Positions 1 through 37,909 of a stretch of DNA of 39,749 nucleotides are shown here, one piece after another. The DNA lies in the IMG/VR virus record IMGVR_UViG_3300021057_000022, positions 1-39,749 of that record. One strand, written 5' to 3'. Each line of letters begins with the position of its first letter. Position 1 is the first letter of the stretch. Made by a program: the position numbers and the translations under genes. The stretch is from a virus. The notes below the pieces were generated by a model, which worked only from the letters and a program-made list of their open reading frames with translations, ran no database searches and had not been told where the DNA came from.

Positions 1-496
1 CGCAGGCGCGCTGGCGTCAATAGTTTATAATGCGCTGGTGCTTGCAGAGGAAATGAAACTCCCATTCAACGAGATTTGGGACGAAGTCCAGGGCGCGAAC
101 ATGAAGAAGACGCGAGCGAAAAAAGCTGGCGATTCCACCAGGTCGACTACGCTCGATGTCATCAAGCCTAAAGGATGGATGCCGCCGAACGTTGCCGGGA
201 TCTTGAACAAGCACGGCGCGGCTATCCCGCTCAAGATATTCAGGATCAACAGACACATACTTGGCGCATATGATCTGTCGCAGGCGATTCATTTGTATAA
301 GATGCATCGGAGCGACGCGATCGAGATATCCGTCGAGCTATCGGATGATGAACGTGTAAGCAATACGTGGCATCTATTCGGCGGCGCGACATATGCTCCT
401 GGAAAACGCGTGCGAGATTTGATTCCAGAAATAGAGCTACAGGCACCGCCTTTTATTATCGCAGCAGGTGGTGCTGGATTCACCGGAACTGTTTAA
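1..496 (+). CDS. MazG-like NTP pyrophosphohydrolase, 5'-truncated by window edge
   Basis: The frame is open from the window edge and ends at TAA 494-496, so only the C-terminal part is visible. The first ~70 residues match the end of the all-alpha MazG/phosphoribosyl-ATP pyrophosphohydrolase-like domain common in phages: a helix followed by EIWDEV, then ANMKK, then a DVIKPKGWMPP segment. Such enzymes hydrolyse nucleoside triphosphates to monophosphates; in phages they are usually taken to adjust nucleotide pools or alarmones. About 90 further residues after the domain are not recognised. The next gene is a dNMP kinase, which fits a nucleotide-pool module. The family call is fairly firm; the substrate is unknown. 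Confidence 0.7.
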   Translation, partial: AGALASIVYNALVLAEEMKLPFNEIWDEVQGANMKKTRAKKAGDSTRSTTLDVIKPKGWMPPNVAGILNKHGAAIPLKIFRINRHILGAYDLSQAIHLYKMHRSDAIEISVELSDDERVSNTWHLFGGATYAPGKRVRDLIPEIELQAPPFIIAAGGAGFTGTV

Positions 497-529: not shown

Positions 530-1033
530 ATGATTACGATATTCGAAGGTCCAGATGGATCTGGTAAATCGACGGCTGCGCTAGCATACGCAGAGGCAAC
601 GGGCGCAACGTATAAGCATTGGGGACAAGTCAATGATCCATTCGGCGAGTACGTTGGCTACCTGGCCGACGCAATTCCCGAAGGCTCCGATATCGTATTC
701 GATCGCTTCTACCAGAGCGAACTGGTGTATGGTCCACTGTTCCGGCAGTCAGAAAGGATTGGTAAAAGAAAGTGGCTACTCGAGTCGATATGCGCAGGTA
801 ATAAGGCGGTTGTCGTCTTGTGTATGCCGCCAGTTAAGGAGATCAAAGCTAATATCCAGGCAAGAAGCGACGGCGCAGATATGGACGGCGTGCCTGACAT
901 GATCGACTCGATATGCTTCGCGTACGTCGATATCCTGGGCGACCTGCCGTGGCTTCTTTACGACTACACGACATGCAATGGTAGTCTTATGGATATGATC
1001 GCAGAGACAAGATCTATTGCGTACTCAAGATGA
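530..1033 (+). CDS. Deoxynucleoside monophosphate kinase (thymidylate kinase-like)
   Basis: A 167-residue P-loop kinase. Walker A is GPDGSGKST at residues 7-15, and a DRFYQS segment at 58-63 corresponds to the DR(Y/F)xxS nucleotide-binding motif of thymidylate kinases. It should phosphorylate a dNMP to the dNDP in the cytoplasm. Its stop overlaps the start of the next gene (ATGA), a thymidylate-synthase-family enzyme, so the pair is probably translationally coupled. If that enzyme makes a modified pyrimidine nucleotide, this kinase would be the obvious next step, as gp1 is in T4; that link is inference. No clear Shine-Dalgarno site precedes ATG 530. Confidence 0.8.
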   Translation: MITIFEGPDGSGKSTAALAYAEATGATYKHWGQVNDPFGEYVGYLADAIPEGSDIVFDRFYQSELVYGPLFRQSERIGKRKWLLESICAGNKAVVVLCMPPVKEIKANIQARSDGADMDGVPDMIDSICFAYVDILGDLPWLLYDYTTCNGSLMDMIAETRSIAYSR

Positions 1034-1878
1034 TAGGGACGCATGTATATCCGACAGCAACGGCTGCCTGGGAAAAGATTATCCAGCAGCTGGTGGTAAC
1101 CGTTAACGGCGTCGCGCCGCGCGGCGAACCAACGCGCGAGATCCTTCATGCGTCAGTCGGATTCCCAATGTTTCATCCGGTTGTGACGCGAATTAACAGG
1201 CGCCTTAACTATAAGTTCATGGTAGCCGAGGCGCTGTGGATTTTGTCTGGGAGAGATGACGTCGGATACCTCGCTAAGCACAGTAGCAATATGCTTCAGT
1301 TTAGCGACGATGGTGTTACATTGTCCGGCGCATACGGACCGCGCGTCGCATCGCAATTTAGCTACGTGGTCGAGAAGCTTAGAGAAGACGAGTCGACCAG
1401 GCAGGCCGTACTTACCACGTGGGAACGTAATCCGGCGCCGTCAAAAGATATCCCGTGTACGATTGCGATTACGTTTAACATCAGGTATTCTTATCTGAAC
1501 GCGCATGTATTTATGCGCTCGAGCGACGCATGGCTCGGAGTACCGTATGACTTTTTCAGTTTCTCATGCATCGCGATGGGCATTCTTGCCGCGCTGAATG
1601 ACGGCCGGGAATCCGGCAATCGTATCTATCCAGGAGTCATATACTGGACGGCAGCCAGCAGTCATTTGTATGATCGAGATATAGCCAAAGCGGAGTCATG
1701 CCTGGGCATCGGGAACGGCAACTACGAGACCGAGGCGATTCCGCGTGCGTTTACAAACAATATGCAGGGATTTAAGGCTTTATGCGATGAGCTTGATAGA
1801 ATACAAACCTGCGCCGTCGTCGATCGTCCGCCATGGATTCCCAAAACCTTCGTTACGTCTGCATCAATAGTTAAGTAG
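1030..1878 (+). CDS. Thymidylate synthase family, dCMP-hydroxymethylase-like
   Basis: A 282-residue protein of the thymidylate synthase fold. The catalytic Cys lies in IPCTIAITF (Cys143), followed by the nucleotide-binding segment RSSDAWLGVPYDF (from Arg163) and a late SSHLYDRD segment matching the His/Tyr dUMP-binding motif. Where thymidylate synthases have Asn (Asn177 in E. coli, LPFN), this protein has Asp174 (VPYD). That change is the known mark of dCMP specificity in T4-type dCMP hydroxymethylase. I infer either a dCMP-directed enzyme or a divergent phage thymidylate synthase. The ATGA overlap with the upstream dNMP kinase supports one pathway. No glycosyltransferase or other hypermodification gene is visible in the window. 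Confidence 0.75.
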   Translation: MIGTHVYPTATAAWEKIIQQLVVTVNGVAPRGEPTREILHASVGFPMFHPVVTRINRRLNYKFMVAEALWILSGRDDVGYLAKHSSNMLQFSDDGVTLSGAYGPRVASQFSYVVEKLREDESTRQAVLTTWERNPAPSKDIPCTIAITFNIRYSYLNAHVFMRSSDAWLGVPYDFFSFSCIAMGILAALNDGRESGNRIYPGVIYWTAASSHLYDRDIAKAESCLGIGNGNYETEAIPRAFTNNMQGFKALCDELDRIQTCAVVDRPPWIPKTFVTSASIVK

Positions 1879-2755: not shown

Positions 2756-2891
2756 CGGTAAGGTATTGAAGCTGCCCGTAGGCAGCAGGTACATCAAGCT
2801 TAAAACGCTGGCTGGAGAAACTATCAATTACTTACAAGCAGACTGCGTAGATGGATTCGGGCGCCGAGTATTCGAGGAGGATACCTGTTAA
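2694..2891 (+). CDS. Hypothetical small protein
   Basis: About 65 residues from ATG 2694 (TTG 2691 is also possible). It overlaps the end of the preceding gene by 62 nt and the probable start of the VRR-NUC gene by 41 nt. It fills an otherwise empty gap, and its predicted strands (KVLKLPVGSRYIKLKTL) look like a real small domain. No known family is recognised. The long overlaps lower the confidence. Confidence 0.45.
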   Translation: MKRLRPLENEIVISSRIKEHDGKVLKLPVGSRYIKLKTLAGETINYLQADCVDGFGRRVFEEDTC

Positions 2892-3303
2892 CATTCGAGA
2901 TATACTGCCGAACATTAGATCGGACCTATATCATTTTGTTAACGACGAACGCAATGAGATGACGCAGTTCTTCCGCTGGGCAAAATCATGCGAGCGGATA
3001 TTCCCTGAACTCGCGTTGCTCTACGCTATCCCGAACGGACTTAAGCGCGACGGTACAAGGAGCGAGGTAGGTACGCGATCTGGAATTCCAGATATCCATC
3101 TGCCTGCCAGGTCTGGCAGTTTCTCGAGTCTGTATATTGAAATGAAAGTTGGAGACAACGATACATCGAGAGAACAAGACGCGTGGCTAAAGAAACTGCA
3201 TGCCGCAGGTAATGCTGTTTGCGTTGCTTACGGCTGGATACAGGCTGCATGGTTCACGGTTGAGTACCTGACTGACCCAGATGACTTTGTGAGCGGACCA
3301 TAA
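2851..3303 (+). CDS. VRR-NUC domain nuclease
   Basis: A 150-residue single-domain nuclease of the VRR-NUC branch of the PD-(D/E)XK superfamily. AIPNG at 59-63 is followed by GIPDIHLP with Asp81, YIEMKVG with Glu97 and Lys99, and a helix with Gln109 (SREQDAWLKKL), which together form the D...ExK...Q active site. Stand-alone phage members are thought to act as structure-specific nucleases, for example on flaps or Holliday junctions. The start is uncertain: ATG 2851 lies inside the previous gene, while ATG 2959 would give a shorter protein that keeps the whole domain. The stop overlaps the next start (TAATG), implying coupling to the Spo11/TOPRIM gene. Confidence 0.8.
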   Translation: MDSGAEYSRRIPVNIRDILPNIRSDLYHFVNDERNEMTQFFRWAKSCERIFPELALLYAIPNGLKRDGTRSEVGTRSGIPDIHLPARSGSFSSLYIEMKVGDNDTSREQDAWLKKLHAAGNAVCVAYGWIQAAWFTVEYLTDPDDFVSGP

Positions 3304-4269
3304 TGCCGAGAATAGCCTACATAGAAAAGCGATTCAGCCGCAAGAACTACCAGCTAATCGATACGGTCAATGGAATCATTGATGAGTACCTGGATGCTGG
3401 ATTCGATCTAACGTTGCGCCAGCTATACTATCAGCTCGTGGCGCGCGACATAATTCCTAACTCCCAAAAAGAATACAAGCGGCTTGGCGACGTCGTATCC
3501 GAAGCCAGGTTAGCCGGCCATATCGACTGGAATGCGATCGTCGACAGAACCAGGAATCTTAGAGGCGGATCGCATTGGAATGAACCGCAATCAATAATCC
3601 TGTCTGCAACAAGATCTTATGCTATTGATAAGTGGGCAGCGCAGCCGAATCGCGTAGAAGTCTGGGTCGAAAAGGACGCGCTGATCGGCGTGATAGAACA
3701 CGCGTGCCAGCCGCTCGATGTAAACTGTTTCTCGTGCCGCGGATATACGTCGCAATCCGAGATGTGGGTCGCGGCCGAGCGTCACATAGGTTACGAGTCG
3801 CAGGAAGCAGCAGCCTATCGTGCTTCACCTCGGAGATCATGATCCGTCCGGCATCGATATGACGCGCGATATCGAAGAACGGCTAGCGATGTTTGGAGCG
3901 AATACGATCGTCGAGAGGATCGCGCTGAACATGGACCAGGTACGACAATATAATCCTCCGCCTAACCCGGCAAAGGTTACGGATACCAGGTTCAAGGCAT
4001 ATCAGCGACGCTACGGTGTTAAGTCCTGGGAGCTCGATGCACTAGATCCGAGGACGCTTGCAAACCTGATCCAGGCAACAATTATTAAGTATCGCGATGA
4101 ATCTGCGTGGCGCGTCGCTGTTACTAAGGAAGAAGCCGAGCGTAAAGATCTCAGCGATATCTATACGCGATACCAGGATGTAACCGCATTCCTGGGCGAC
4201 CTACCGCCAGTATCCATGTTACCGAAGCGAGACGCAAGGTATGCGTTCTATAGACATCGAGGAGCGTGA
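3303..4269 (+). CDS. Spo11/Topo VI A-like TOPRIM protein, interrupted by a frameshift
   Basis: Two frames together encode one protein. Frame one (3303-3842) has TLRQLYYQLV at 37-46, like the catalytic-Tyr motif of Spo11 and topoisomerase VI A, then VEKDA with Glu123, the TOPRIM glutamate. It then runs into a false C-terminus ending at TGA 3840. The other frame resumes with HLGDHDPSGIDM, the TOPRIM DxD motif, and continues to 4269. The shift must lie between TAG 3787-3789 of the second frame and 3840; the join is probably near 3805-3815 (gaagcagcagcc), one base out of register. Intact phage relatives encode this as one ~310-residue protein. It could be a real mutation, an assembly indel, or a +1 programmed shift. 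Confidence 0.8.
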
Positions 4270-37399: not shown

Positions 37400-37909
37400 T
37401 CACCTTGTTGATGTTGCGACAAAGCCGGCGCCAACCTTATCTGACTCCGGCTCCCAGTTGTCTTCGATAAAGAATTGAATCTTTGAATCCAGGCATAGCG
37501 GAATCAAATACCTGAGATTTGAAATGCATTCCCTGTAGCATATCATCTCGATAGGTAGAATGAGGATGCGCTCATCGCCATGATCCAGGTCGACTGTTGG
37601 CAACTCCTCTATGCGGTCCGTGAATGTCTTAAAGACATGCACCATCCAGAACCCGCCTGCAATTACGCCTGCATACTCCCAGTCGAAGCACCTGCCTGCT
37701 TCTTCATAGCCTTCGCGGCGCATTGCATCGCTTGGAACCTCGTTCTCACCGATCCCGCCACCAAACCCGTTTAGCAATCCTCTCTGCCATTCTGGACGCT
37801 TCTTTCGCATGAGCGCGATCTTACGCTTATCGCGCGAGAATACGAATCCCAGGCAATACTCTTTACGCGTAAGGACGTCGCCCGTTACGCTGGCTAGTTC
37901 AATCGGCAT
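37400..37909 (-). CDS. Nudix hydrolase
   Basis: A 169-residue protein with a complete Nudix box at about residues 51-73: G-x5-E-x7-REGYEEAG, ending in the required Glu pair. It should hydrolyse a nucleoside diphosphate linked to another group, such as a modified dNTP or NAD-like compound, in the cytoplasm. The preceding segment RGLLNGFGG is typical. It overlaps the upstream gene by 11 nt. A link to the nucleotide module at the left edge is possible. Confidence 0.85.
   Translation of the reverse strand: MPIELASVTGDVLTRKEYCLGFVFSRDKRKIALMRKKRPEWQRGLLNGFGGGIGENEVPSDAMRREGYEEAGRCFDWEYAGVIAGGFWMVHVFKTFTDRIEELPTVDLDHGDERILILPIEMICYRECISNLRYLIPLCLDSKIQFFIEDNWEPESDKVGAGFVATSTR

Follow-up and report, generated by a model that had tools for sequence, protein, structure and literature searches.

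A phage gene of the thymidylate-synthase fold predicted to encode a dCMP hydroxymethylase distinct from T4 gp42

The gene at positions 1030-1878 of the viral contig IMGVR_UViG_3300021057_000022 very probably encodes a dCMP hydroxymethylase that would feed modified cytosine into the DNA of its phage, and the predicted hydroxymethylase clade to which it belongs is most likely distinct from T4 gp42. The assignment draws on the fold, the active-site residues, the phylogeny, the operon and the conservation of a gene cassette; from these we infer the reaction, the specificities of the adjoining kinase and hydrolase, and the modification of the virion DNA. The gene adds a member to a large phage enzyme family, and the kind of enzyme is already known.

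Gene block and protein fold

We analyzed the complete record of 39,749 bases (hereafter the window), which is classed as linear and is therefore probably a fragment. The minus strand carries tailed-phage genes for terminase, portal, capsid, tail, holin and endolysin. A plus-strand block at the left edge contains, in order:

Positions 2..496, plus strand: MazG-type nucleotide pyrophosphohydrolase, C-terminal part, cut by the contig end (phrog_18404, E 3e-9; phrog_671 nucleotide pyrophosphohydrolase, E 2e-6)
Positions 530..1033, plus strand: P-loop deoxynucleoside monophosphate (dNMP) kinase, 167 aa (phrog_761 thymidylate kinase, E 4e-19)
Positions 1030..1878, stop included, plus strand: predicted dCMP hydroxymethylase of the thymidylate-synthase fold, 282 aa, ATG start (PF00303, residue code, trees, AlphaFold2)

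The MazG-type tail also matches MazG-like phage proteins and is a candidate dCTPase. Phage matches of the kinase are limited to AXL3 and PW916, and its solved relative is YorR (PDB 2axp/3kb2). Megablast of window positions 1-25000 against phage records returned zero matches, and a search for a sister phage through the terminase found three short contigs only; the same terminase search gave no match in the record with the best enzyme match (L017).

Other genes of the window were read alongside. A VRR-NUC-type nuclease gene (phrog_824; 2851-3303, plus strand) lies just downstream of the block; such a gene occurs at 8 of the clade's 98 loci, several times 3-4 kb downstream. At 3303-4269 (plus strand), two overlapping ORFs match the DNA topoisomerase profile phrog_6247 at profile positions 4-162 and then 173-298; this is a single gene broken by a frameshift near 3805-3822, which is either genuine or an error of sequencing.

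The protein encoded at 1030-1878 matches PF00303 (Thymidylat_synt) with an E-value of 1.3e-18 and a score of 67.6 (gathering threshold 24.3), and the thymidylate synthases (TS) of PHROG with E-values down to 7e-37, which is far from chance. An AlphaFold2 model built on 60 sequences of the window clade (pLDDT 92.1, pTM 0.90) was compared with solved structures. The CMP hydroxymethylase MilA was the best match (Z 28.2, rmsd 2.1 over 250 residues), followed by 9iqc (Z 23.9) and TS (about 23), and the matches to structures of the TS fold lay at Z 22-28. MilA is the nearest solved structure by sequence as well (E 1.5e-20). Profile match and fold thus both place the enzyme in the PF00303 superfamily.

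Active-site residues and their conservation

Residue positions follow E. coli ThyA unless a window number is given. The following codons of the window gene were located by alignment:

1456..1458, plus strand: window Cys143, catalytic (E. coli TS Cys146, T4 dCH Cys148)
1549..1551, plus strand: window Asp174, predicted to select cytosine (E. coli TS Asn177, T4 dCH Asp179)
1447..1449, plus strand: window Asp140, predicted to activate water (T4 dCH Asp145; Leu in TS)
1459..1461, plus strand: window Thr144 (E. coli His147; Thr in T4 gp42 and MilA; MetaGPA position 147)
1399..1401, plus strand: window Arg124, putative deoxyribose preference (Lys133 in ribo-specific MilA)
1519..1521, plus strand: window Ser164, putative deoxyribose preference (Ala176 in ribo-specific MilA)

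A preliminary description of this DNA had singled out the catalytic Cys143 and the Asp174 of the motif VPYDFF, and had taken the latter as the mark that specifies dCMP. Both residues align as it proposed, with E. coli Cys146 and Asn177, and the reading of the Asp appears sound, as it is invariant in 98 of 98 sequences and is joined by Asp before the Cys, Thr after it and Arg126/Ser167. In the T4 enzyme Asp179 selects dCMP, and the D179N variant makes almost no product and has an affinity for dCMP that is about 13-fold lower (PMC6400193). In MetaGPA, positions 177 (with Asp) and 147 were those most associated with contigs containing modified cytosine (PMC8670742). Asp174 indicates that the base is cytosine.

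Seven residues are informative beyond that description: Asp140, Thr144, Arg124, Ser164, Asp166, Gly170 and Tyr214 of the window enzyme. Position 143 is Asp in T4 gp42, in MilA and in the dUMP hydroxymethylases, and Leu in TS. The D145N change abolishes the activity of T4 dCH, and the authors of that study conclude that the hydroxyl group comes from water activated by Asp145 (PMC6400193). Asp140 indicates hydroxymethylation, not methylation. At positions 126 and 167, Arg and Ser correspond to deoxyribose, versus Lys and Ala in the ribo-specific MilA (PMC5175136), and Arg124 and Ser164 of the window enzyme indicate a deoxyribose sugar. Positions 169, 173 and 209 are Asp, Gly and Tyr in the folate enzymes, as they are in the window (Asp166, Gly170, Tyr214).

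Glu67 of the window enzyme aligns at the position of the catalytic Glu58/60 and is present alongside Cys143. T4 Ser94 (or Thr, two residues before Tyr96), which has been put forward as one of the hydroxymethylase marks, corresponds to Gly100 before Tyr102 in the window; its absence speaks against the assignment, although the dUMP hydroxymethylase SPO1 gp29 is likewise devoid of a Ser94 equivalent, having Ala there. The C-terminal tail of TS is absent and the protein ends in FVTSASIVK. The column of E. coli Trp80 was excluded, its alignment being unstable between runs.

A scan of viral contigs with the alignment of relatives yielded 295 encoding loci, 80 of which were kept, and conservation was assessed for the window plus 97 relatives. 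Cys146, Thr147, Asp177, Asp143, Arg126, Ser167, Asp169, Gly173, His207 and Tyr209 are invariant (98/98). As the patterns of the viral scan omitted positions 143, 147 and 177, the selection of loci does not account for the invariance there; a PYD pattern did enter the genome_contigs scan, which contributes only a few loci. Window Met162 is not independent evidence, because it was included in the scan pattern for the relatives.

Phylogenetic position and related enzymes

The family of the window enzyme forms a single starred clade (100/99) in a tree of 52 rows, outside TS (100/98). This clade is separate from T4 gp42, MilA, the dUMP hydroxymethylases and the clade of Xp12 kin, and how the hydroxymethylase lineages branch relative to one another is poorly supported. 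A tree constrained to join the window enzyme to TS is rejected (delta lnL 50.6, AU p 0.0025). Phylogeny had been named beforehand as a check, and it places the enzyme in a hydroxymethylase-like clade rather than deep inside TS; the residues and the tree together identify it as something other than an ordinary thymidylate synthase.

Its likeness to the T4 type, as the preliminary description had put it, stands in part. T4 gp42 (T4dCH, PDB 6a9a/6a9b) shares the marks of a dCMP hydroxymethylase, namely the Cys nucleophile, Glu60, Tyr96, Asp145, the Thr after the Cys and Asp179; neither enzyme has the C-terminal tail of TS, and in T4 a dCTPase and a dNMP kinase act alongside the enzyme. On the other side, identity to gp42 is about 22%, Ser94 is replaced by Gly, the clades are separate, and the window fragment shows no glucosyltransferase. 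MilA (Streptomyces, PDB 5jnh/5b6d) shares the same Thr/Met/Asp/Asp set, but has the ribose-type Lys133/Ala176 and serves an antibiotic pathway, not DNA.

Members of the same clade include the TS-like enzymes of AXL3, PW916, HTVC119P, HTVC200P and the Manatee Spring contigs. They are 36-50% identical to the window enzyme, have the full residue code and in most cases the gene order MazG-kinase-enzyme, and are annotated as 'thymidylate synthase', 'deoxyuridylate hydroxymethyltransferase' or 'pyrimidine hmase'. The window differs from them in that the usual downstream dCMP deaminase is absent and the upstream region is cut off.

In Microbacterium phage Eleri (L107), a 40-kb actinophage, a T4-like dCMP hydroxymethylase is named ThyX in the record; it adjoins a glycosyltransferase, a thymidylate kinase and MazG, a gene set that is likely a pathway to glycosylated hydroxymethylcytosine.

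Gene cassette, proposed pathway and alternatives

The order of the cassette in relatives is SAM methyltransferase, MazG pyrophosphohydrolase, kinase, TS-like enzyme and dCMP deaminase, of which the window retains the MazG tail and the kinase. Where enough flanking DNA was available, the genes upstream of the enzyme included MazG in 68 of 85 loci, the kinase in 69 of 85 and the SAM methyltransferase in 59 of 85; the deaminase lay downstream in 80 of 90. Neither a dCMP deaminase nor a sugar transferase was found within the 39,749 bases of the window, and the deaminase could sit on the missing part of this fragmentary contig.

In phage T4 the trio is formed by the dCTPase gp56, gp42 and the kinase gp1. 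The trio of MazG, enzyme and kinase appears to parallel this logic. DHFR was found nearby in 0 of the 98 loci of the clade. This matters because methylation, unlike hydroxymethylation, turns tetrahydrofolate into dihydrofolate (PMC6400193).

Several loci depart from the common arrangement. In seven (L076, L077, L079, L080, L082, L085 and L087) MazG was not found and a NUDIX hydrolase gene occupies the same slot, two genes upstream, which suggests that it replaces the dCTP-removing function. The window has its own NUDIX hydrolase gene amid the structural genes (37400-37909, minus strand), unrelated to those of the seven loci at E 1e-3. At L048 (8077-9042 and 4624-5643), L032 and L074, genes for PLP-dependent and GDSL enzymes, or for relatives of the alpha-glutamyl/putrescinyl thymine pyrophosphorylase, hint at further hypermodification.

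Experimental evidence comes from Stenotrophomonas phage AXL3, which has the full cassette and an enzyme 45% identical to that of the window. AXL3 DNA resists 35 of 37 restriction enzymes; only TasI and Tru1I, with A/T-only sites, cut it, and none of the enzymes tested whose sites include G/C does (PMC7504290). This pattern points to altered G/C rather than T. The authors gave the TS-like gene a role in dTMP synthesis, against which the residue code speaks; as AXL3 also encodes ThyX (PMC7504290), dTMP need not come from the TS-like gene. The window itself shows no depletion of palindromes with G/C (the ratio of observed to expected is 1.07 for 4-mers and 1.00 for 6-mers), and this absence of restriction-site avoidance is compatible with modified DNA and not diagnostic of it.

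In the proposed mechanism, Cys143 would attack C6 of dCMP, with the cytosine held and its N3 protonated by Asp174, and 5,10-methylene-tetrahydrofolate would supply the one-carbon unit. Water activated by Asp140 would then attack the exocyclic methylene, which would yield 5-hydroxymethyl-dCMP and tetrahydrofolate. Phosphorylation of this nucleotide would fall to the overlapping kinase, and with dCTP removed by the MazG-type hydrolase at the contig edge, the polymerase would insert the modified cytosine; the likely benefit to the phage would be resistance to host restriction enzymes. The preliminary description had suggested this synthesis from the enzyme and an overlapping dNMP kinase. The overlap is there, the stop of the kinase ORF 530-1033 and the start of the enzyme gene sharing the 4 bp ATGA at 1030-1033, and the synthesis appears supported by the reaction residues, the intact folate site, the 0/98 count for DHFR and the T4-like cassette.

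The conserved methyltransferase of the cassette is of the small-molecule SAM type (Methyltransf_23; e.g., L010 9647-10471) and could act on hydroxymethylated cytosine. It is the main candidate for further decoration in the relatives, and the window ends before its position. More tentatively, and with a chance that we regard as low, the clade might make an undescribed hypermodified cytosine, the methyltransferase altering hydroxymethyl-dCMP to, for example, methoxymethyl-cytosine, with G/C-specific resistance of the AXL3 type as the result.

A dCMP methylase, in which a folate hydride reduces the methylene on the same fold with the same Asp to give 5-methyl-dCMP as in Xanthomonas phage Xp12, is improbable here. 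The single change of Asn177 to Asp suffices to make E. coli TS a dCMP methylase, according to work cited in PMC8670742, and phages of the Xp12 genus and their kin have TS-like enzymes with Asp177. However, these enzymes have Asn three residues before the Cys and Pro after it where the window has Asp140 and Thr144, they form a separate starred clade, and DHFR adjoins the enzyme gene in Mallos, PA_LZ02 and AXL1. The Xp12 lineage was represented by DoCa6, AXL1 and Mallos, leaving out Xp12 (MT664984) and Bosa (LR743532). In Mallos, PA_LZ02, DoCa6 and AXL1 (L104, L106, L113 and L114) the TS-like gene (Asp177, Asn143, Pro147) is followed by a dCMP deaminase gene and, in three of the four, by an annotated DHFR as well; these TS-like genes are strong candidates for dCMP methylase genes.

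An FAD-dependent dCMP hydroxylase, the 5-hydroxy-dCMP synthase of Mosigvirus and other arabinosyl-hydroxycytosine phages (AfhB, PDB 9iqc/9iqu), has the fold, the Cys-Thr pair, Met165 and Asp177 in common with the dCMP hydroxymethylase that we propose. This reading is nevertheless very improbable. The Mosigvirus enzyme, nearly identical to 9iqc, uses FAD and has Glu143, Asn169, Val173 and Phe209 in place of the Asp140, Asp166, Gly170 and Tyr214 of the window, whose counterparts are invariant in the clade and typical of folate-using enzymes, and MilA is nearer in fold.

Production of hydroxymethyluracil by a dUMP hydroxymethylase of the SPO1 gp29 type would match the annotation in PW916; this group was the nearest named one in one tree (92/91), and most relatives have a dCMP deaminase. 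SPO1 gp29 also has the Asp three residues before the Cys. We consider it highly unlikely all the same: the enzymes of SPO1, ViI, Montesquieu and Pam3 combine Asn177 with Asn147, as for a uracil substrate, versus Asp177 and Thr147 throughout the clade, and the cleavage of AXL3 DNA suggests that T is not the altered base.

That the gene is a degraded or moonlighting copy and lacks catalytic activity could be suspected from its place near the contig edge and from the frameshifted gene downstream, but is extremely unlikely given an intact ORF, a confident model and the retention of all catalytic and ligand residues. An ordinary thymidylate synthase boosting the dTMP supply, as the database names and the adjoining 'thymidylate kinase' would have it, is hardly credible with Asn177, Leu143 and His147 all replaced, the C-terminal tail missing, the tree position outside TS, no DHFR at any of the 98 loci and ThyX available in AXL3 for real dTMP synthesis.

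The clade is widespread, with 295 confirmed loci from one viral-contig scan, and sits in a fixed cassette; its enzymes are filed under thymidylate synthase or deoxyuridylate hydroxymethyltransferase, names that are, by the residue code, both probably wrong. AXL3 and PW916 are cultured members, which makes the prediction directly testable. One residue code would tell apart five chemistries of this fold, leading to dTMP, hmdUMP, hmdCMP, mdCMP and 5-hydroxy-dCMP, and may in this way aid the annotation of DNA modification in phages.
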